From positions 1 to 64,000 of the forward strand of contig JABHAT010000029.1 of the NCBI GenBank assembly GCA_018674175.1: a DNA stretch of 64,000 nucleotides. Reading direction: 5' to 3'. Below the pieces are notes generated by a model. It ran no database searches and had not been told where the DNA came from. It saw nothing but the letters and a program-made list of their open reading frames with translations. How positions within the stretch are numbered: position 1 is the first letter of the stretch; each line of letters opens with the position of its first letter. Source of the DNA: Gammaproteobacteria bacterium (lineage in GTDB: Bacteria; Pseudomonadota; Gammaproteobacteria; Poriferisulfidales; GCA-002705445). The translations under genes were made by a program, and so were the position numbers. Positions 559 to 49,363 of the stretch are shown here, in pieces.

Positions 559-687
559 TATAAATTTTACTTATAGTTGATTAAAATTTTGCTATTAGCA
601 TTCTTTAACTCTTGTGGAGTATAGTATATAGCATACATAAAGGTGCAAGAAGACACCTAATTAATTTTGGTCATAACAGGAGGGGAT

Positions 688-1488
688 ATGCCAACGTTTA
701 TAAATATAAATCCGTTTGAGATATTGGTTGCCAATACATGGGTAACATCAATTGCCTTGCAAGGCTTTTTAATAGCAATGGCAGTATTAACTGTTGGTGG
801 TGTACTTCTAGATATTAAGCATAAAAAAAATGTTAAGTATTTTTTTGATAATGCAAAAAAAGCAAAAGAAAAAGCGACAACAAATGTTCCAACAGGCAAA
901 AAAGTTGGAATTATTGTCAACACAGTAGCGCATGATGTTCTTACTTCAGGTGAATTCTGTGGATGGAAAAGAAGAGTAGCTCATTTGCTAGGAATGTATG
1001 GAACAATTATCTTTTGGGTAGCTTCTGCATTAATGATCTTTAAATATTCAGCTTCTGCAACACCTGCGATTGTTTCACAATTTTGGCATTTAGGTGCAGC
1101 GATGACATGTTTAGGAGCATATTGGTTCTGGTTTTTCTTAAGAGTTGATGTTGCTGCTGAAGGTCACAAATGGTACCGAGTAGTTTTCACAGATTTATTT
1201 GTACTAGCTTTGGTAATTACCTCGACATTAGGATTATTGTGGTCTTATACGCAACATGCAGAATCACAATTCAGTATTATATTTTTAGTGCTATTTGTAT
1301 TTTCCAATATAGTTCTATTTGGTGGTGTTTATTGGTCTAAATTTGCACACATGTTCTACAAGCCTGGGGCTGCTATTCAAAAACATTTAGCTGAAGCAGA
1401 TGGTTCTAGAGACAGTTTGCCAGAACCAGCAGATGCACCAGAACAATTTGGTTTAGGAATCAAACGTGAAGCACCTAGACATTATTAA
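688..1488 (+). CDS. aprM: AprM, membrane anchor of APS reductase
   Basis: Putative membrane subunit that passes electrons between adenylylsulfate (APS) reductase AprBA and the quinone pool; known from sulfur oxidisers that use AprM in place of QmoABC. I see an N-terminal hydrophobic segment (residues about 15-40) and four more in residues 95-240, with a soluble lysine-rich loop between, in the style of the cytochrome-b-like QmoC/HdrE/nitrate reductase gamma proteins. An upstream in-frame TTG exists at 667, but ATG 688 has a strong ribosome site, AGGAGGGG at 678-685. aprB follows after 63 bases and aprA after that, the known aprMBA order. The identification rests mostly on this context plus membrane topology. 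Confidence 0.85.
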   Translation: MPTFININPFEILVANTWVTSIALQGFLIAMAVLTVGGVLLDIKHKKNVKYFFDNAKKAKEKATTNVPTGKKVGIIVNTVAHDVLTSGEFCGWKRRVAHLLGMYGTIIFWVASALMIFKYSASATPAIVSQFWHLGAAMTCLGAYWFWFFLRVDVAAEGHKWYRVVFTDLFVLALVITSTLGLLWSYTQHAESQFSIIFLVLFVFSNIVLFGGVYWSKFAHMFYKPGAAIQKHLAEADGSRDSLPEPADAPEQFGLGIKREAPRHY

Positions 1489-1551
1489 TAAATGTTTAGT
1501 ATGAGAAAAGAATTTTTAATTAATTTATATAAAAAGTAATAGGAGAAAGTT

Positions 1552-2052
1552 ATGTCAACATTTGTATATATGACCCGTTGTGATGGTTGCGGACACTGCG
1601 TAGATATCTGCCCTTCTGATATCATGCATATCGATCCAAAAATTAGGCGTGCTGTTAACATTGAACCAAACTTTTGTTGGGAATGTTATTCATGTGTAAA
1701 AGCATGCCCACAAAATGCTATCGATGCTCGAGGCTATGCTGACTTTGCCCCTATGGGCCACAAGGTTCGAGTTCTTAGAGAAGAAGAAAAAGGAACTATC
1801 TCTTGGAAGATTACATTTAGAAATGGTACTGAGAAAAATTTTGTATCACCTATTACAACAAAGCCATGGGGCAAGCATATTCATAAAGTTGCAGAAGCTG
1901 AAGTTCCAGATCAAGCTGCACATGACAACCAATTACTTTTTAATGAACCAGACTATTTAAAAATTGGCGACAATAGAGATGCTAAATTAATTAATAATGA
2001 TGGGCTTCCAGATCGTCCAAAAGCAACATTTAAACAGGGAGTGTACTACTAA
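1552..2052 (+). CDS. aprB: APS reductase beta subunit (ferredoxin-like)
   Basis: Iron-sulfur subunit of dissimilatory adenylylsulfate reductase. In sulfur oxidisers the enzyme runs in reverse, making APS from sulfite and AMP and releasing two electrons. Two [4Fe-4S] cluster motifs are clear: CDGCGHCVDICP (about residues 10-21) and CWECYSCVKACP (about 43-54), followed by the AprA-wrapping C-terminal tail typical of the family. At 166 residues it has the usual length. The start has AGGAGA at 1541-1546. Its stop codon overlaps the aprA start by one base (TAATG), so the two are translationally coupled. Confidence 0.96.
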   Translation: MSTFVYMTRCDGCGHCVDICPSDIMHIDPKIRRAVNIEPNFCWECYSCVKACPQNAIDARGYADFAPMGHKVRVLREEEKGTISWKITFRNGTEKNFVSPITTKPWGKHIHKVAEAEVPDQAAHDNQLLFNEPDYLKIGDNRDAKLINNDGLPDRPKATFKQGVYY

Positions 2053-3902
2053 TGGCTAATCATAAAACTGTTTACGAAGATTGTGATGTACTAATTGTTG
2101 GTGGTGGTATGGCGGGAACAGGTGCCACATTTGAGTCCAGATATTGGGGTCGCGATATGAATATTGTCTGTGTAGAAAAAGCAAACATTGACCGAAGTGG
2201 AGCTGTTGCTCAGGGTTTGTATGCGATTACCTGCTACATGGGTACAAGATGGAATGAAAATCAACCAGAAGACCACGTTCGTTACGCAAGAAACGATTTG
2301 ATGGGAATGGTTCGTGAGGATTTAGCTCTTGATATGGCTCGTCATGTTGACTCAGCTGTTCATATGTTTGAAGAGTGGGGTTTACCTTTAATGAAAAATA
2401 AAGAAGGTAGATATCAAAGAGAAGGAAAATGGCAGATTATGATTCATGGTGAAAGTTATAAGCCAATAGTAGCTGAAGCTGCTAAGAAATCTGCAAGCAA
2501 AATTTATAACCGTGTAATGATTACTCATCTTTTAAAAGATGAAAGTAATGATAATCGTTGTGGTGGTGCTGTTGGTTTTAATATGAGAACAGGTGACTTC
2601 CATGTGTTCCGTGCAAAAGCGACAATTATATGTGCTGGTGGTGCTTCACACATCTTCAAACCAAGAGCTGTTGGAGAAGGAATGGGAAGAACTTGGTACG
2701 CACCTTGGAGTAATGGTTCTTGTTACGCGCTTCCAATTTTATTGGGCGCTAAAATGACACAAATGGAAAACAGAATCGTATTATGTCGATTCAAAGACGG
2801 TTATGGTCCAGTAGGAGCATATTTCTTACATCTTAAAACTTACACACAAAATGCTTATGGTGATGAGTACGAGTCAAAATGGTATGACCAAACTAAAGAA
2901 ATGGTTGGAGAATATATTGATCATACTCCAACACCAACATGCTTACGAAACCATGCGTTTTTAGAAGAAGTAAAGGCCGGTAGAGGTCCAATTCACATGG
3001 TAACTATGGAAGCCTTTCAAGATCCACATTTGGAAACTATTGGATGGGAAAACTTTTTAGGTATGACAGTTGGTCAGGCTGTAGTATGGGCTTCACAAGA
3101 TATTGATCCTAAATACGAAAACCCAGAGTTAACAACATCAGAACCATACGTTATGGGTTCTCACGCGACTTGTTCTGGGGCTTGGGTAAGCGGCCCATCT
3201 GATTTATCTCCAAAAGAATACTTCTGGGGTTATAACAGAATGATGACAGTTGATGGCGTATTTGGAGCTGGAGATACTGTAGGTGGAACAGCTCATAAGT
3301 TTTCTTCAGGATCATTTACAGAAGGACGTCTTGCAGCCAAAGCTGCTGTTCAATATATAAATGATATGGAAACAAAACCTAGCGTATCTGAGAAACAAAT
3401 AAGTAATTTTAAAGAAGAAGTGTTTAAACCATTAGATAATTATATTATTGGTCGAAATGAAATTACTGGTGGTACAGTATCACCAAGTTATATTTTACCA
3501 ATTCAAGGCCTGCAACGTCTTCAGAAGATTATGGATGAGAATTGTGGTGGTATCACAAGTGGTTATATGACAAATGGAATCGGACTTAAAAAAGGCTTAC
3601 ATCATCTAGAGATATTACAAGAAGATCTAGAGAATATTGGTGCTGAAGATCTTCATCAATTGATGAGAGCTTGGGAACTAAGACATCGTGCTTTAGTTTC
3701 TCAATGTGTTACTGAACATACATTATTTAGAGAAGAAACTCGTTGGCCTGGATACTACTACCGCGGTGACCATATGAAACTTGATGATGAAAATTGGCAT
3801 TGCTTAACACTATCGCGCCGCGATCCAAAAACTGGAAAATTTGTTATGGAAAAAGCACCGATCTATCATATAGTAGATGAGGAACAAAAAAAGGCGGGTT
3901 AA
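2052..3902 (+). CDS. aprA: APS reductase alpha subunit (flavoprotein)
   Basis: Catalytic FAD subunit of dissimilatory adenylylsulfate reductase, acting on sulfite/AMP and APS in the cytoplasm. The N-terminal dinucleotide-binding motif VGGGMAGTG lies at residues 17-25. The fumarate reductase/succinate dehydrogenase flavoprotein fold continues through GGASHIFKPRA (about 196) and the FGAGDTVGG segment near residue 400. The length of 616 is normal for the family. Codon use and base composition look less AT-rich than most neighbours, as expected for a highly expressed gene. The gene order aprM-aprB-aprA supports a sulfur-oxidiser type enzyme. Neither sat nor qmo genes are in the window. Confidence 0.97.
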   Translation: MANHKTVYEDCDVLIVGGGMAGTGATFESRYWGRDMNIVCVEKANIDRSGAVAQGLYAITCYMGTRWNENQPEDHVRYARNDLMGMVREDLALDMARHVDSAVHMFEEWGLPLMKNKEGRYQREGKWQIMIHGESYKPIVAEAAKKSASKIYNRVMITHLLKDESNDNRCGGAVGFNMRTGDFHVFRAKATIICAGGASHIFKPRAVGEGMGRTWYAPWSNGSCYALPILLGAKMTQMENRIVLCRFKDGYGPVGAYFLHLKTYTQNAYGDEYESKWYDQTKEMVGEYIDHTPTPTCLRNHAFLEEVKAGRGPIHMVTMEAFQDPHLETIGWENFLGMTVGQAVVWASQDIDPKYENPELTTSEPYVMGSHATCSGAWVSGPSDLSPKEYFWGYNRMMTVDGVFGAGDTVGGTAHKFSSGSFTEGRLAAKAAVQYINDMETKPSVSEKQISNFKEEVFKPLDNYIIGRNEITGGTVSPSYILPIQGLQRLQKIMDENCGGITSGYMTNGIGLKKGLHHLEILQEDLENIGAEDLHQLMRAWELRHRALVSQCVTEHTLFREETRWPGYYYRGDHMKLDDENWHCLTLSRRDPKTGKFVMEKAPIYHIVDEEQKKAG

Positions 3903-32479: not shown

Positions 32480-33256
32480 ATGATTAATTTATTAGATTTT
32501 AGCAAAAAGCTTTTTGCGTCACTTCTAGTAGTAATCGCCTTACCAACTTTAGCTATAGCAGGTGGACATGCATCTGGTTTATCTGGAGATGATTATGTAG
32601 GTGTTACTTTCTGGATAATTTCTATGGCTATGGTTGCATCAACAGTATTTTTCATTGTTGAGCGTGACAGAGTTAGTTCAAAATGGAAAACATCATTAAC
32701 AGTTTCTGCGTTAGTTACATTAATAGCGGCAGTGCATTATTTCTATATGAGAGACGTGTGGGTAGCTACAGGTGAATCACCTACAGTTTTCAGATACATT
32801 GATTGGTTATTAACTGTTCCATTGTTAATGATTGAGTTCTACTTTATTTTAGCGGCTGTTACTACAGTATCTGTAGGAATTTTCTGGAGATTACTAATCG
32901 GTACAGTAGTTATGCTAGTTGGTGGATACATGGGTGAAGCAGGAATGGTGTCAGTAATGACAGGATTCATCATAGGGATGATCGGTTGGCTATATATTCT
33001 TTATGAAATCTTTGCTGGTGAAGCTTCTAAAGCAAATGCTTCTAGTGGAAGTGCAGCATGTCAAACAGCATTTGGTGCATTACGTTTAATTGTTACAGTT
33101 GGTTGGGCAATTTATCCTTTAGGATACTTCTTAGGATATTTAGCTGGTGGTACAGATCCAGCAACTGTAAACATAGTTTACAACTTAGCTGATTTTGTAA
33201 ACAAAATTGCCTTTGGTTTAATTATATGGGCAGCAGCTGTTAAAGAATCTGCGTAA
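32480..33256 (+). CDS. Proteorhodopsin, green-tuned proton pump
   Basis: A light-driven outward proton pump of the inner membrane, 258 residues with an N-terminal signal-like segment (about 10-28) and seven helices. By alignment in mind to the classic SAR86 protein, all key residues are shifted by 11: H86 (H75), D108 acceptor (D97), T112, L116 (L105, leucine meaning green absorption), E119 donor (E108) and K242 for the Schiff base (K231) in DFVNKIAFG. The gene is visibly less AT-rich than the crt genes after it, consistent with strong expression. It has its own terminator, so crt genes may be separately transcribed or reached by read-through. Confidence 0.98.
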   Translation: MINLLDFSKKLFASLLVVIALPTLAIAGGHASGLSGDDYVGVTFWIISMAMVASTVFFIVERDRVSSKWKTSLTVSALVTLIAAVHYFYMRDVWVATGESPTVFRYIDWLLTVPLLMIEFYFILAAVTTVSVGIFWRLLIGTVVMLVGGYMGEAGMVSVMTGFIIGMIGWLYILYEIFAGEASKANASSGSAACQTAFGALRLIVTVGWAIYPLGYFLGYLAGGTDPATVNIVYNLADFVNKIAFGLIIWAAAVKESA

Positions 33257-33280
33257 GTAGAATTTTTAATAAGTTTAACT

Positions 33281-33312
33281 AAAGGCTCGCTGTAACTAGT
33301 GAGCCTTTTTTA
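33281..33312 (+). terminator. Intrinsic terminator after proteorhodopsin
   Basis: AAAGGCTC (33281-33288) pairs with GAGCCTTT (33301-33308), extended inside by CT/AG, followed by a T-run to 33311. It is a textbook intrinsic terminator, and the clearest in the window. It separates the rhodopsin transcript from crtI, which starts 16 bases later. Confidence 0.88.
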
Positions 33313-33327
33313 TTTCCCGGTATTTTT

Positions 33328-34803
33328 ATGAAAAAAGTTATTATTATTGGATCTGGCTTTGGTGGTCTTTCGATTACTTCTAGATTGCGAAGCAAAGGAT
33401 TTGATGTGACATTAATAGAAAAACACGGTGACCTAGGTGGAAGAGCAAGGACATTTTTGCATAATGATTATAAGTACGATGCTGGCCCTACAGTTATAAC
33501 GGCGCCATATTTAATAGATGAACTTTTCTCAATACATTCAGAGAAGTTAAGTGATTATGTGAATTTATTACCAGTAAAGCCATGGTATAGATTTTTATTT
33601 GAAAATGGAGAATATCTAGATTACGGAGATAAATTAAGTACTACAGTTAGAGAAATAAAATCAAAATATAGTTATAAAGATGCAAGGTCATATATAAAAT
33701 TATTAAAACACAGCAAAAGAATCTTTAATAAAGCCTTTTTAGAACTTTCTGACGAACCCTTTGAAAGTCTCGGAAGCATGGTAAAACATCTTCCAGAGTT
33801 AATAAGAATAAGATTTGATAGATCTGTATATCAGGCTGTAGAAAAACACATGGGTAATAAAAATTTAAATCAAGCATTAAGTATGCATCCCCTACTTGTT
33901 GGTGGAAATCCATATAGCACAACATCAATATATTTATTAATACAATATTTAGAATGGAAGTGGGGGGTATTTTATGCAGAAGGAGGTACAGGAAAAATTG
34001 TAGATGCTTTAGAAAAGCTATTGCTAAAAAAAGGTGTTGAGATAAAAAAAAATACAGAAGCGCATAAAATAATTGTGAGTAAAAATAAAGTTATAGGCGT
34101 GGAAACGAATAAAGGATTAATTGATTGCGACGCCGTTGTATGTAATTCTGACCCCACATATACATATAAAAATTTACTTGGGTATAAACCTAATAAGATA
34201 TCTAATAATTTTAACTTAAAACATTCAATGAGTTTATTTGTACTATATTTCTCCACAAAAAAAATTTACAAAGATGTTAAACACCATACAATAATATTTA
34301 GCAAAAGACATTATGAGTTATTAAATGATATTTTTAATAAAAAAATATTTGTTAATGACCCTAGCTTATATCTTCATAGGCCAGGAGCAACTGATCCTTC
34401 GATGATACAAAATAATAATGATACATTTTATGTTTTAGCACCCGTACCTAATAACTTAAGTAATATTAACTGGGATGATAGAGGGGACGAGCTTTCATCA
34501 ATAATAATTGATACATTGCAAGAAAAAATTATGCCAGAACTATCCCAAAATATAGTGGACAGTTTTTACATAACTCCTGATTATTTTGAAAATGAATTAA
34601 ATACATATGCTGGAAGCGGTTTTGGAATACAGCCAATTTTTACGCAATCTGCTTATTTTAGATATGGAAATAAAGCGAAGGAAACAAAAGGGCTATATTT
34701 TGTAGGTGCAAGCACTCATCCAGGAGCAGGAGTTCCTGGTGTATTATCAACATCAAAAGTCACTGAAAAACTAATTTTAAGAGATTATGGGGATAATAAA
34801 TAA
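33328..34803 (+). CDS. crtI: Phytoene desaturase
   Basis: FAD-dependent desaturation of phytoene to lycopene, first of the retinal-pathway genes here. N-terminal FAD motif VIIIGSGFGGLSITSRL (about 4-20), then GGRARTF (about 44) and YDAGPTVITAP (about 51-61); C-terminal GLYFVGASTHPGAGVPGVL is the CrtI signature. 491 residues, standard. Overlaps crtB by 17 bases. Confidence 0.96.
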   Translation: MKKVIIIGSGFGGLSITSRLRSKGFDVTLIEKHGDLGGRARTFLHNDYKYDAGPTVITAPYLIDELFSIHSEKLSDYVNLLPVKPWYRFLFENGEYLDYGDKLSTTVREIKSKYSYKDARSYIKLLKHSKRIFNKAFLELSDEPFESLGSMVKHLPELIRIRFDRSVYQAVEKHMGNKNLNQALSMHPLLVGGNPYSTTSIYLLIQYLEWKWGVFYAEGGTGKIVDALEKLLLKKGVEIKKNTEAHKIIVSKNKVIGVETNKGLIDCDAVVCNSDPTYTYKNLLGYKPNKISNNFNLKHSMSLFVLYFSTKKIYKDVKHHTIIFSKRHYELLNDIFNKKIFVNDPSLYLHRPGATDPSMIQNNNDTFYVLAPVPNNLSNINWDDRGDELSSIIIDTLQEKIMPELSQNIVDSFYITPDYFENELNTYAGSGFGIQPIFTQSAYFRYGNKAKETKGLYFVGASTHPGAGVPGVLSTSKVTEKLILRDYGDNK

Positions 34804-35635
34804 CACACAAATAATTTATGAGAACAGCAAGTCCTTTTATTGGGCTAGTAAATTCTTACCTAAAAAAATTTTGAAAAAAGTCATAAATATTTACGCTTTT
34901 TGTAGATTGCAAGATGATCTAGTAGATGAGGGAATAAAAATAGAAGATTCTAGTGAATTAGAAGAGCTTGAAAATATTATAAAATCTTACGGTGTAAGTA
35001 AAAATATAATCTCAAATCTAATGGAAGGAATTAATTCTGACAAAAATTTTAAAAGGTTTAAAGATAACTCCGAGCTTCTAAGATATTGCTATAAAGTCGC
35101 AGGAGTTGTTGGATTAATGATGATTAAAGCTTTAGATATAAAGCAATCAGAAGCAAAATATTTTGCAATAGATTTGGGAATGGCAATGCAGCTAACAAAT
35201 ATCTCTAGAGATATAATGCAAGATTATAAAAAAAATAGAATCTATATTCCTGAAAATACTGGAATAAATAAAGATATTATAAGTAATATGACTAGTGAAA
35301 ATGAGAAAAAAATTAAGAAAGTTGTTAATCAAATAATATTAAAGTCAGAAATATATTATAAAAGCTCCTTAAATGGTCTGAGATATATACCAATAAGATC
35401 TAGATTAGCAATCCTTGTGTCTCTAAGAATATATCAAGGAATTGGTATAAAAATAACAAAAACAGGAAAAAAATTTATTCATGAGAACTTATATGTGACA
35501 AATATAGAAAAAACATTGATTGTTGCGAAAACATTAATTGAATTTATAATCTTTTTTATATTTCCTGTTTACAAGAAAAAACATAATGTATATTTACATG
35601 AATCCTTAGAGGGTTTATATGATATCCACAGATAA
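34787..35635 (+). CDS. crtB: Phytoene synthase
   Basis: Joins two geranylgeranyl diphosphates to phytoene. SKSFYWASKFLP at the N-terminus, the first aspartate-rich motif CRLQDDLVDE (about 38-47), and the second, MQLTNISRDIMQDYKKNRIYIP (about 135-156), are present. 282 residues. Overlaps both crtI and crtY by 17 bases. Its substrate producer, CrtE, is not encoded in this cluster. Confidence 0.95.
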   Translation: MGIINNTQIIYENSKSFYWASKFLPKKILKKVINIYAFCRLQDDLVDEGIKIEDSSELEELENIIKSYGVSKNIISNLMEGINSDKNFKRFKDNSELLRYCYKVAGVVGLMMIKALDIKQSEAKYFAIDLGMAMQLTNISRDIMQDYKKNRIYIPENTGINKDIISNMTSENEKKIKKVVNQIILKSEIYYKSSLNGLRYIPIRSRLAILVSLRIYQGIGIKITKTGKKFIHENLYVTNIEKTLIVAKTLIEFIIFFIFPVYKKKHNVYLHESLEGLYDIHR

Positions 35636-36764
35636 TAAATATGATTATATAATAATTGGTGCTGGTTGTGCCGGTCTAAGTTTAGCTTACAGGCTTTTAA
35701 ATAAAAATTATAAAATTTGCATATTGGAATCTAATAAAAACATAAATGAGAAAAATAAACTCTGGTCATTTTGGGATACTAAAAAAACTCCATTTAATCA
35801 TCTTATTAAAAAAAGATGGGAATATTTAATAATAAAAAATAAGTCTGAATCAATAAAAATTAATTGCAAGGATTACAATTATCAAAGTATAAACTCAAGT
35901 GATTTTAATAACTATATTATAAATAAAATAAATAAAAATATAAATTTTGACTTAATATTTTCCGAGAAAGTTGAGAATATTAAAAAAAATAATAATGAGG
36001 TTATTTTAACTACAAGTAAAAATATATATAAATGTAAGCATATATTTGATAGTAGCCCTAAAATACAAAAAGTTTTTATGTGGCAGAAATTTTTTGGCGC
36101 ATATGTTGAGGCAGAAGAAGAAATATTTGATGAGAAATCTCCAATATTTATGGAATTCTCAGATACAGAAAATAAATTTCACTTTATGTATATATTACCT
36201 TTTTCAAAAAAGACAGCGCTAATAGAGTCTACATATTTCTCCTGTCATGAAGAAAAAGAAATGCTCGATGAAAACTTTATTGATAGTTATATGCATAAAA
36301 AACATCCAAATAAAAAATATACAATTCAGAAGACGGAGTTTGGTAGAATTCCAATGGATACTAAAATTAATAGTATTACTGAGGATTATATTACTAAAAT
36401 AGGATCATATTCTGGAGTTACAAGAGCAAGTACTGGATATACATTCATAAATATTCAAAAGCAGGCTGATAAATTAGCAAATATAATGCCAGTTATAAGT
36501 GGTAATAATGAAAGTAAAAGATATTTTCACTCAATTTTATTGAGAAAAATGGATGCTGTATTTTTAGAAATTATTTCAAATAATCCAGAATATATGAAGA
36601 ACGCATTAATGGACTTATTTAGAACAAAAAAACATAATCCACAGATAAGATTTCTTTCTGATACGCCAACTATTCTTGATATATTAAAAATAATTATTTA
36701 CTTACCAAAAATAAAATTTATGCAGTACGCACTTGGTATAAAAAAAAATTTAAATGATAAATAA
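35619..36764 (+). CDS. crtY: Lycopene beta-cyclase
   Basis: Cyclises lycopene to beta-carotene. CrtY-type flavoprotein: YIIIGAGCAGLSLAYRLL (about 9-26), LWSFWDT (about 47-53), FGRIPM and YSGVTRASTGYTF (about 265-277). 381 residues. Very AT-rich. Overlaps blh by 11 bases. Confidence 0.94.
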   Translation: MISTDNKYDYIIIGAGCAGLSLAYRLLNKNYKICILESNKNINEKNKLWSFWDTKKTPFNHLIKKRWEYLIIKNKSESIKINCKDYNYQSINSSDFNNYIINKINKNINFDLIFSEKVENIKKNNNEVILTTSKNIYKCKHIFDSSPKIQKVFMWQKFFGAYVEAEEEIFDEKSPIFMEFSDTENKFHFMYILPFSKKTALIESTYFSCHEEKEMLDENFIDSYMHKKHPNKKYTIQKTEFGRIPMDTKINSITEDYITKIGSYSGVTRASTGYTFINIQKQADKLANIMPVISGNNESKRYFHSILLRKMDAVFLEIISNNPEYMKNALMDLFRTKKHNPQIRFLSDTPTILDILKIIIYLPKIKFMQYALGIKKNLNDK

Positions 36765-37656
36765 AATTAATATTATACATAAAAAATCTTTTGTTATTCT
36801 GAGTATTGCTAGCTTATTAGTATTTTATATATTCACATTTAGTCCTAACATTGACTATCAAGTATATTTTTTATTTGGTTTAGTATCAGCTATAGGAATT
36901 CCTCACGGTTTTTTTGATTTTTCAATTGGAAAAAAAATATTTAAGAAATATAATAGAAAATGGATATTATATTTTACACTAAGCTATATTTTTATATCAT
37001 TCATATATTTAATTGCATGGGTTTTCTTGCCAGGGCTTTCATTATTATTATTTTTATTTTTAGCTGCATACCATTTTGGGTTTGAAGATTATAATTATAT
37101 GCAGGAAACAAATAAGGTAGTTTATGTAGACATTAATATCTTTATTAAAGGTCTTATTGTTGTATTTACACCAATATTATTTCACTTTGATCAAGTAAAT
37201 TACTTATTTTCTGTTCTTATAGGTTATAAAATAAATGGTATTGAGTTTAGTATTATTCAAAAAATACTTTTTATCTTTTTATCAGTTACTCATATATTGT
37301 TTGAGAAGAAAAAGAGTTATCTTCATAAAACTGAGGGTATTCTATGTTTTTTAAATTTTGTGATATTGCCACCGCTTGTTTCATTTATACTTTATTTTTG
37401 TTTCATGCATTCTATAAGACATTTTTTAGAGTCAATATATATATTAAAGTTAGTTCCAAATAACTTTACTACAAGAAATTTCTTAATTGTGATTATTTTA
37501 ACTTCAGTTGTTTTTTCTATATTTTCAGTTTTCCTTATTTCGAATTTTTATGAGATATCCATAAGCGATACTGTAATAAAATTTATTTTTATTATTCTAG
37601 CTTGTTTAACTTTACCTCATATGATTTTCAATATGGTGCCATATAATAAAGAATAA
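36754..37656 (+). CDS. blh: Beta-carotene 15,15'-dioxygenase Brp/Blh
   Basis: Integral membrane iron enzyme that splits beta-carotene into two retinals, supplying the rhodopsin chromophore. Iron-ligand histidines are visible in GIPHGFFDF (about 48-56), AAYHFGFED (about 104-112), HSIRHFLESI (about 216-225) and LPHMIFNM near the end. About eight hydrophobic helices in 300 residues. Last gene of crtI-crtB-crtY-blh and convergent with yggX two bases on. Confidence 0.94.
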   Translation: MINKINIIHKKSFVILSIASLLVFYIFTFSPNIDYQVYFLFGLVSAIGIPHGFFDFSIGKKIFKKYNRKWILYFTLSYIFISFIYLIAWVFLPGLSLLLFLFLAAYHFGFEDYNYMQETNKVVYVDINIFIKGLIVVFTPILFHFDQVNYLFSVLIGYKINGIEFSIIQKILFIFLSVTHILFEKKKSYLHKTEGILCFLNFVILPPLVSFILYFCFMHSIRHFLESIYILKLVPNNFTTRNFLIVIILTSVVFSIFSVFLISNFYEISISDTVIKFIFIILACLTLPHMIFNMVPYNKE

Positions 37657-41687: not shown

Positions 41688-42407
41688 ATGAGAAAAAATG
41701 GAAGAAAACCTAATGAACTAAGAGCTATTAAGATTACAAAAAATTACGTATCGCACCCTGAAGGTTCAGTTTTAGTGGAGTTTGGCGAAACTAAAGTTAT
41801 ATGTAATGCAACTATTGAGAATAATGTTCCTCGTTTTCTAAAAGGAAAGAACATGGGTTGGGTTACCGCAGAGTACGGAATGCTTCCTAGATCAACTAAT
41901 GAGAGAATGAGAAGAGAAGCAAAAAACAAGCAAAGTGGTAGGACGATGGAAATTCAAAGATTAATTGGGAGGTCTTTAAGATCCTCAGTAAACTTAAATA
42001 AACTTGGCGATAGATCTATTACTGTAGACTGCGATGTTATTCAAGCTGATGGAGGCACAAGAACAGCTTCAATTACTGGAGGATTTGTAGCTCTATGTTT
42101 AGCTTTAAGGAGCCAGGATGATGATAATTTTAGTTCTGTGGATGCTATCAAGTCTTTCACAGGCTCAGTATCTCTTGGTAAAGTTGATGGTGTAATTGCT
42201 TTAGACCTAGATTATGAAGAAGACTCAAATGCTGAGACAGATATGAATTTTATTATGAATGAAGAAGGTAATTTTATAGAAATACAAGGGACCGCGGAAA
42301 AAGGTTCGTTTTCAAAAAATGAGTTAGACCAAATGACATCTTTAGCTTCAGAAGGCATAAAATCTATTATCGAAATACAAAAAAAATCATTAAATAGTTA
42401 TGAGTAA
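41688..42407 (+). CDS. rph: Ribonuclease PH
   Basis: Phosphorolytic 3' to 5' exoribonuclease that trims tRNA ends. [15 protein letters not shown] (about 65-79), [12 protein letters not shown] (about 90-101), [21 protein letters not shown] (about 115-135) and [12 protein letters not shown] are intact. 239 residues. Overlaps rdgB by eight bases, a common pairing. Confidence 0.97.
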
Positions 42408-42996
42408 AATTGTTCTAGCTTCAAATAATAGTCATAAGATAAAAGAGTTTTCAAAAATATTAGATGAGGAAAATATACAATTAATTTCTCAATCAAAACT
42501 AGATATTCCAGAAGCAGACGAGACGGGGCTAACATTTTTAGAAAATTCAATAATAAAAGCAAGAAATGCATCTTTAATAGCCAAACTACCTGCAATAGCA
42601 GATGATTCTGGTATTGAAGTTGATGCACTAAATGGAAGGCCGGGTATCTATTCAGCAAGATATGCAGGGTTGGAGTGTGATGATAAGGCAAATAACAAGC
42701 TTTTATTAAAAGAGTTAAAAGACATTCCTTTCTCTCTAAGAACAGCCAGATATCATTGCACAATTGTTTACCTATCATCTTATGATCACCCGGTACCAAA
42801 AATATACAATGCTACCTGGGAAGGTTATATAGGCACGCAGGAGATAGGCAAAAACGGATTTGGGTACGATCCTTTGTTCTATTTGCCGGAGTATAAATGT
42901 ACGGCAGCAGAGCTTTCTGAGAGCGTTAAAAACACTATTAGTCATCGTGGGCAAGCCCTTAAAACGTTTAAGGAAGAATTTATAATAAATACGTAA
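42400..42996 (+). CDS. rdgB: XTP/dITP pyrophosphatase
   Basis: Ham1/RdgB house-cleaning enzyme that removes non-canonical purine nucleotides. [12 protein letters not shown] (about 5-16), [24 protein letters not shown] (about 67-90) and [11 protein letters not shown] (about 148-158). 198 residues. Last gene before the AT-rich non-coding region. Confidence 0.96.
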
Positions 42997-43469
42997 AATA
43001 TTAACTTTTTTATTAGTTTTTTTATAAATTTAGCTTGCTTTTTTTAATTTTTTTAAGAAACATTTCTTTTTATAGGGTCTTTTATTCACAGATAATATTT
43101 TTGTCAACTTTTATTACATCTTTATTAAAAATAAATATAGAGAATTTTTTTTTAATTTTCTTCATATTAATCAATAGCTTATATTGTACAAAAAATGAAC
43201 AATTTAATAGCTATTAAAGAATGTATGAATACTACTAAAACAAATAAGTTTTTTGCACAGACTTATCCACAATTTTTGTGGATATAAAAAATACCTCTAC
43301 AAAACAGTAATTTATATAGTTTAGTTAGAAATTATTACCAATTAGTGGTCTAAATAATAATAATTATCCAAATATTTTTAGCTTTATTTCAATATTAAGA
43401 CAATACTGCTTGTGGCAATATGTTTCTTTAGGTATTATTCATTCTCTTAAATTTAATGTTTGTAATATT
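42997..43469. other. AT-rich non-coding region with DnaA-box-like sequences
   Basis: About 470 bases without a credible gene. It holds TTATTCACA (43082-43090, +), TTATCCACA (43263-43271, +, perfect consensus), TGTGGATAT (43277-43285, the complement with one mismatch, facing the former across five bases) and TTATCCAAA (43364-43372, +, one mismatch). Long A/T runs surround them. This pattern fits a replication origin, a DnaA-titrating site or a DnaA-regulated promoter for rpmE2. No GATC sites, dnaA or mnmG nearby, so origin status is unproven. Confidence 0.45.
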
Positions 43470-47775: not shown

Positions 47776-49131
47776 ATGATTAAAAAGTTATTGATAGCTA
47801 ATAGAGGCGAAATTGCACTACGTATTTTGAGAGCATGTAAGGATCTAGGTATTAAAACAGTCGCAGTTCATTCCGAAGTTGACAGAGATCTAATGCATGT
47901 AAGATTAGCTGACGAATCAGTTTGTATTGGCCCTGCAGACTCTAGAGAAAGTTATTTATTACCATCTTCAATAATTAGTGCTGCAGAGATAACAAATTCA
48001 GATGCTATTCATCCTGGTTTTGGATTTTTATCAGAGAATGCAGATTTTGCGGAACAAGTTACAAAGTCTGATTTTATTTTTGTTGGTCCAAAATCTGAAA
48101 CAATAAAATTAATGGGCGATAAAATTCTCGCAAAGAAAGCAATGAATGATGTTGGTATAACTGGTATTCCTGGGTCAAAAGGACCAGTATCAAAAGATAT
48201 TTCTGAAAATAAAAAAATAGCAAATGAAGTTGGGTATCCTGTTTTAGTTAAAGCAGCTCATGGAGGTGGTGGGCGAGGAATGAGAACAGTTGAGAAAGAA
48301 GAGGATCTTGAAGAATCTATTACACTTACTCAAAATGAAGCGCAACTAGCATTTGGTAACGACACTGTTTTCATAGAAAAATTTCTAGAAAAACCAAGGC
48401 ATATTGAATTCCAAGTTCTTTGTGATAATTTCGGTAACGCAATATGTTTAGGCGAAAGAGATTGTTCAATGCAGAGAAAACATCAAAAAGTTATTGAGGA
48501 AGCTCCAGCACCAGGAATAACGCTAGAAATTAGAAATAAAATGAGTGAATTAGTTACAGATGCTTGCAGGAAGATAGACTATATTGGAGCAGGTACTTTT
48601 GAGTTTTTATATCAAGACGGAGAGTTTTATTTCATTGAGATGAATACAAGAATTCAAGTAGAGCACCCAGTTACAGAAATGATTACAGGCATAGATATTG
48701 TGAGGCAACAACTTTTGATAGCTTCTGGCGAAAAGGTAGGGTATACGCAAGAACAAGTAGAATTAAGAGGGCACGCAATAGAGTGCAGAATAAATGCCGA
48801 GAATTCAGAGACATTTATTCCTTGTCCTGGAACAATTAATCAGTTTCATGCGCCTGGAGGGCCAGGAGTAAGAATGGATACACATATTTATAATGGTTAT
48901 TCAGTACCACCAAATTATGATTCGATGATTGGAAAATTAATTTCATATGGAAATAATAGAGATGCCGCAATCAGAAGAATGAGTAATGCATTAAACGAAA
49001 TTGTTATAGATGGAATTGATACAAATATAAATTTACAAAAAAAATTAATTCTAGATTCTGAGTTTCAAAAAGGAGGATTCAGTATAAATTATTTAGAAAA
49101 TAAATTTAAAAAAGAAAATGGATCAAAGTAA
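47776..49131 (+). CDS. accC: Biotin carboxylase subunit of acetyl-CoA carboxylase
   Basis: ATP-grasp enzyme that carboxylates biotin on Acc[16 protein letters not shown] (about 6-20), [26 protein letters not shown] (about 160-171) and [17 protein letters not shown] (about 286-302) are conserved. 451 residues. Overlaps fis by 14 bases. prmA and dusB, between accC and fis in Pseudomonas, are missing. Confidence 0.98.
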
Positions 49132-49363
49132 ATCAAAAAGATTATTGAGAGAGTTTGTAAGACAAGAAGTACAGGAATATTTTAAAAAAATTGATGGATA
49201 TCCAATTGATAAAGTATATAGCTTAGTAATAGGTGAAGTAGAAAAACCACTTATAGAAGAAACGATTAAATATTGTAAGGGCAACCAATCTAAAGCTTCA
49301 GAGTTACTTGGTATTAGTCGAGGAACTTTGAGAAAAAAAATGAGACAGTATGATGTTTTTTGA
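49118..49363 (+). CDS. fis: Fis nucleoid protein
   Basis: Small DNA-bending regulator of 81 residues. The C-terminal helix-turn-helix [19 protein letters not shown] (about 60-78) is near-identical to Fis, and an acidic middle carries the dimer helices. Start lies within accC, and its TGA overlaps the purH region, so translation is coupled to acetyl-CoA carboxylase instead of dusB as in E. coli. Confidence 0.93.

Follow-up and report, generated by a model that had tools for sequence, protein, structure and literature searches.

A group of DnaA-box-like sequences in a non-coding gap raises the question of whether such a locus is a replication origin located away from dnaA or a site at which DnaA is titrated or otherwise controlled. 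Both readings had been offered in an earlier note on the window, which is the whole stretch of 64,000 nucleotides of DNA analyzed here. The group lies in an AT-rich gap (positions 42997..43469) between two plus-strand genes, the upstream rdgB gene for an XTP/dITP pyrophosphatase (42400..42996) and the downstream rpmE2 gene for a type-B ribosomal protein L31 (43470..43715). The gap had been put at about 470 bases; it measures 473 bp from rdgB to the L31 start codon and contains 19.0% GC, compared to 30.0% GC for the window. Elsewhere in the window, the translations point to a proteorhodopsin-like gene followed by apparent carotenoid and retinal synthesis genes (32480-37656), and to genes resembling those of APS reductase (aprA, aprB) with a membrane anchor (667-3902). 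The latter genes suggest a putative capacity for sulfur oxidation.

Four sequences had been named as DnaA boxes or near-matches and all of them were found in place, with five bases separating the opposed pair. These are a distal box TTATTCACA (43082-43090, plus strand), the strong box TTATCCACA (43263..43271, plus strand), the inverted box ATATCCACA (43277..43285, minus strand) and TTATCCAAA (43364..43372, plus strand). The last of these is not conserved among relatives, for which reason it was discarded as a part of the element; it is probably incidental and lies outside of it. One box that was absent from the original list, TTTTGCACA (43251..43259, plus strand), is a full match to TTWTNCACA and completes a triad with the opposed pair.

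The abundance of DnaA boxes alone does not distinguish this locus. Boxes with up to one mismatch are no more frequent in the window than expected from shuffled sequences (27 observed versus 22.1 +/- 5.1 expected) and perfect boxes are not enriched genome-wide, where 12 were counted versus 14 in a reversed control. The gap is the sole place on its 156-kb contig with at least three boxes in 290 bp, and four boxes in 290 bp were obtained in only 0.8% of random placements. The clustering within 290 bases is therefore unusual on this contig, and it is the arrangement of the boxes that provides the decisive excess. On a second contig of 85 kb (C12), the gap between dnaA and rpmH is likewise the sole place with three boxes in 290 bp, so that two box clusters were found in 241 kb of genome.

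The arrangement is that of a DnaA-reactivating sequence (DARS), a type of non-coding DNA where the replication initiator DnaA is recharged. By definition, a DARS core consists of three boxes, with identical spacing in DARS1 and DARS2 of E. coli and with box I opposed to boxes II and III (PMC5742627). If TTATCCACA is taken as box II and as the reference point 0, TTTTGCACA is box III at offset -12, 3 bp away, and ATATCCACA is the inverted box I at offset +14, 5 bp away on the other side. The core in the window reads TTTTGCACA-GAC-TTATCCACA-ATTTT-TGTGGATAT, a geometry of 9-3-9-5-9 with box I inverted. Written in the orientation of the window, E. coli DARS1 reads TAATACACA-TGG-TTATCCACA-GGAAT-AGTGGATAA and E. 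coli DARS2 reads TTCTTCACA-ACT-CTATCCACA-GAAAA-GGTGAATAA, and all three share boxes at -12, 0 and +14, of which the +14 box is inverted. The number, orientations and spacing of the boxes in the window are consequently those of a DARS core. A search with the pattern TTWTNCACA-N3-TTWTNCACA-N5-TGTGNAWAA, in which up to three mismatches were allowed, identified the triad once in the window and not once in 100 shuffled versions. For the E. coli DARS2 core, the candidate TTATCCCAG-CTTTC-TGTGGATAA was rejected, as published deletion primers give TTATTCACC-TTTTC-TGTGGATAG-AGT-TGTGAAGAA instead. The right part of E. coli DARS2 (L219:1442-1486) contains a second, degenerate DARS-like triad, TTATCCCAG-CTTTC-TGTGGATAA-CAT-GGTGTAAGA, approximately 310 bp from the DARS2 core.

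The two E. coli sites differ in their flanking sequences, and these relate the window to DARS2. DARS1, located between bioD and uvrB, has the same core geometry, but an exact IHF site and a full-consensus distal box, both present in the window, are absent from the stretch of DARS1 that was compared; DARS1 is active without IHF or Fis (PMC5742627). In contrast, reactivation at DARS2 is supported by both proteins (PMC5742627, PMC4245941, PMC8682772). DARS2 lies upstream of mutH, a locus different from the rdgB-L31 gap, and its core offsets and orientations are identical to those in the window. Its IHF sites are found at -99/-83, and an exact WATCAANNNNTTR match for IHF, AATCAATAGCTTA (43169..43181, plus strand), is found in the window at -94, at the set distance and on the box III side of the core that characterize the DARS2 subtype. 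Both sites also have a full-consensus DnaA box approximately 180-200 bp out on the box III side. The distal box near -197 of DARS2 is opposed, whereas the distal box of the window, at offset -181, points in the same direction as box II. The Fis consensus differs in position as well. The sequence GTACAAAAAATGAAC (43186..43200, offset -77) matches GnnYAnnnnnTRnnC, the consensus used by Kasho et al. (PMC4245941), without mismatches and lies between IHF and the core, while the only exact Fis consensus found in E. coli DARS2, at -137, is farther from the core than IHF.

The predicted protein partners of such an element exist, as the genome encodes ihfA, ihfB, HU, fis, hda and zapE. The ihfA, ihfB and fis genes score above NCBIfam cut-offs, so that the IHF and Fis proteins of the DARS2 subtype are accounted for, and fis itself (49118..49363, plus strand, NF001659 above cut-off), whose product is an activator required by DARS2 of E. 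coli, is located in the window about 6 kb from the element. The HU and hda genes are best hits below the curated cut-off, with hda identified from a partial stretch.

The same flanking sequences invite a comparison with E. coli datA, at which direct DnaA boxes also flank an IHF site and an opposed box stands beside the second of them. In a datA-like site, IHF bending would unite DnaA bound at the distal box with DnaA bound at the core, stimulate the hydrolysis of DnaA-ATP and lower the level of active DnaA. The computed positions of the plus-strand box, IHF site, second plus-strand box and opposed box are -162, -97, 0 and +12 in E. coli datA and -181, -94, 0 and +14 in the window. However, the opposed pair of datA is separated by 3 bp instead of 5 bp, datA has no DnaA box at -12 and hence no three-box DARS core, and the triad of the window is exactly that core. 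The datA layout is thus reproduced only as far as the order box-IHF-box, and a purely datA-like role is considered unlikely. Because the direction of the distal box and the position of the Fis consensus differ from DARS2 and the datA layout is similar, room is left for a datA-like or combined role as a minority view.

Conservation of the gap was analyzed in an alignment of the own genome, eight other members of the genus and one relative from another genus of the family; several of the genus genomes were deposited as uncultured Thiothrix or uncultured Gammaproteobacteria. The element is found as a block at the same locus in the eight other genus genomes and in the family relative. The triad provides the longest run of invariant columns, CACAGA-TTATCCACA-TT--TGTGGATA, and box II is invariant in all 10 aligned sequences. 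Within the genus, the distal TTATTCACA box and the IHF and Fis matches are conserved as well. The IHF match is found at the same offset, exact in seven of nine genus genomes and with one mismatch in the other two, and the Fis match at -77 is present in all nine (own genome included) and absent in the family relative. When up to two mismatches were allowed, the triad was detected once in the own genome and in 9 of 10 genus relatives. The tenth relative (G007, 98% complete) yielded neither a triad nor an rdgB match, which reflects either a missing stretch or a true loss, and none of eight genomes from other families of the same order contained the triad, which counts against the DARS2 reading. 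This pattern of conservation bears on the suggestion that the boxes passively titrate DnaA without nucleotide exchange. Several high-affinity boxes, and the presence of only two box clusters in the sequence searched, would suit titration. Nevertheless, titration needs no fixed spacing, no opposed pair and no positioned IHF and Fis sites, all of which are conserved here, and it is regarded as a very improbable explanation.

The possibility of an origin away from dnaA, at which the boxes and the IHF site would assemble DnaA and the AT-rich gap would unwind, was assessed by gene direction and GC skew. The AT-rich gap with its several DnaA boxes and IHF site resembles E. coli oriC, and a change of gene direction does occur nearby, as had been noticed earlier. 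However, E. coli oriC does not contain an opposed pair at 5 bp, and the change of direction is local and does not continue on the scale of a replichore. On the own contig, rightward genes predominate to either side of the site, with 35 plus-strand and 14 minus-strand genes on one side and 66 and 43 on the other. The corresponding counts on a 331-kb contig of a genus relative (G001) are 51 and 24, and 177 and 72. GC skew had been among the checks proposed in the earlier note. In both the own genome and G001, the raw skew is positive overall to the left and to the right of the site and thus keeps its sign, and the skew corrected for gene strand does not show a clear change of sign there either. 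Neither a skew minimum nor a flip of gene direction was therefore found at the site.

As both the raw and the corrected skew of these fragmented contigs are weak and dominated by genes, complete relatives were sampled. The sampling covered 12-25% of each complete genome, for which reason the skew minima are located only to within one sampling step. At this resolution, the lowest skew sampled in a complete genome of the same order (G018) falls at 1.38 Mb, close to dnaA at 1.385 Mb, and two complete genomes that carry the triad (G374 and G053) have their minima at dnaA, with the triads about 1.1 and 1.0 Mb away, respectively. The triads of these two genomes lie in the middle of a replichore, as do the DARS sites of E. 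coli (PMC5742627). The sampled skew of two further genomes (G385 and G386) was too weak for origin placement. In the own genome, dnaA is found on contig C12 beside rpmH, and the neighboring genes run leftward to one side and rightward to the other. This rnpA-rpmH-dnaA-dnaN-recF-gyrB region thus combines a local flip of gene direction with three conserved boxes. The boxes in the dnaA-rpmH gap (G000:C12:66589-66638; L004, L100) are TTATCCACA, TTTTACACA and TTATCCACA and are conserved across the genus; this gap is likely oriC or a dnaA control region. The oriC of the genome is most likely located near dnaA, and an origin in the rdgB-L31 gap has very little probability. The element in the window is intergenic and probably away from oriC, as judged from dnaA being located on another contig and from skew and gene direction that are not origin-like. 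Of the two readings offered originally, the control site is supported by the DARS-type core and the IHF and Fis consensus matches, while the origin is not supported by skew and gene direction. The cluster is very probably a DARS-type control site rather than a replication origin.

A search of public genomes revealed that the triad is widespread, with close counterparts of the element in many Beta- and Gammaproteobacteria. The strict triad was detected in at least 115 stretches. In a sample of 369 genomes of the class, 152 contained it, compared to none in a reversed control. Neighboring genes, read from translations, include rdgB in many gammaproteobacteria and priA, xseA, metG or uvrB elsewhere, and two triads of Pasteurellaceae are located upstream of uvrB, which is also a neighbor of E. 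coli DARS1. As the neighbors elsewhere are priA, xseA, metG or uvrB, the element is not tied to one gene. This observation argues against a role in which DnaA acts from the gap as a transcriptional regulator of rdgB or the L31 gene. The gap does lie upstream of the L31 gene, and a promoter-like TTGTGG-N17-TATTAT block that is conserved in the alignment and may serve this gene is located at 43410..43438 (plus strand). However, it starts about 125 bp past box I, at a distance from the triad, and transcription control appears the most improbable of the explanations considered.

Flanking sites recur at preferred positions around these triads. Of 135 non-redundant triads, 85 have a full-consensus distal DnaA box at -205..-165 (0.28 expected) and 50 have an exact IHF site at -120..-80 (0.62 expected). 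When the own family is left out, 38 of 125 carry a Fis consensus at -85..-60 (2.86 expected). These expectations were obtained by mononucleotide shuffling of the flank, which is a simple control, and related genomes were thinned only at 85% identity. The offsets of the distal box in the 135 triads peak at -191 to -188, with smaller groups near -200 and -181, and the groups near -190, -200 and -181 are about one helical turn apart. It is conceivable, though rather doubtful, that the widespread form in Beta- and Gammaproteobacteria is a four-box machine, with the three boxes of a DARS core and a same-direction distal box at a preferred distance, together with IHF and often with Fis. The bend introduced by IHF would place the distal box against the core. 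A single site could in this way combine DARS-type release of ADP with a datA-like DnaA contact, and E. coli would have a rearranged version. Copy number varies, as two Legionella genomes (G389 and G390) contain six triads each, far above most genomes, with some of them paired at distances of approximately 0.9-1.3 kb. At least three triad copies at 322 bp spacing were found in a metagenome-assembled genome of the Methylococcales (L163), which amounts to a tandem array of the entire element.

The direct observations comprise the geometry of the boxes and its conservation, matches to the IHF and Fis consensus at fixed offsets, and the presence of ihfA, ihfB, fis and hda in the genome. The element is probably a DARS2-type DnaA-reactivating sequence. 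Binding of DnaA, IHF and Fis, the release of ADP and an effect on the timing of initiation are predicted functions, carried over from E. coli. Following the E. coli model (PMC5742627, PMC4245941, PMC8682772), ADP-DnaA would bind to boxes I, II and III of the core, and a head-to-head contact between the DnaA molecules on boxes I and II, which are opposed, would loosen the bound ADP. IHF, and probably Fis, would bend the DNA that separates the core from the distal box and would aid assembly. DnaA would then depart empty, take up ATP and be able to start the next round at oriC elsewhere. Conservation of DARS-like sequences in many proteobacteria has already been stated in reviews (PMC10380432), which limits the novelty of the element; the architecture described here is possibly a variant. 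DnaA box clusters away from dnaA are not necessarily origins, as this locus illustrates.

The recharging of DnaA at DARS sites was worked out in E. coli. A simple pattern, together with fixed offsets for the IHF, Fis and distal-box sites, would allow such sites to be mapped in uncultured genomes, and the same offsets offer a way to separate the general parts of the system from details of E. coli. With a clean DARS2-like site present at a genome size of approximately 1.1 Mb, nucleotide control of DnaA seems to be retained even in streamlined ocean bacteria.
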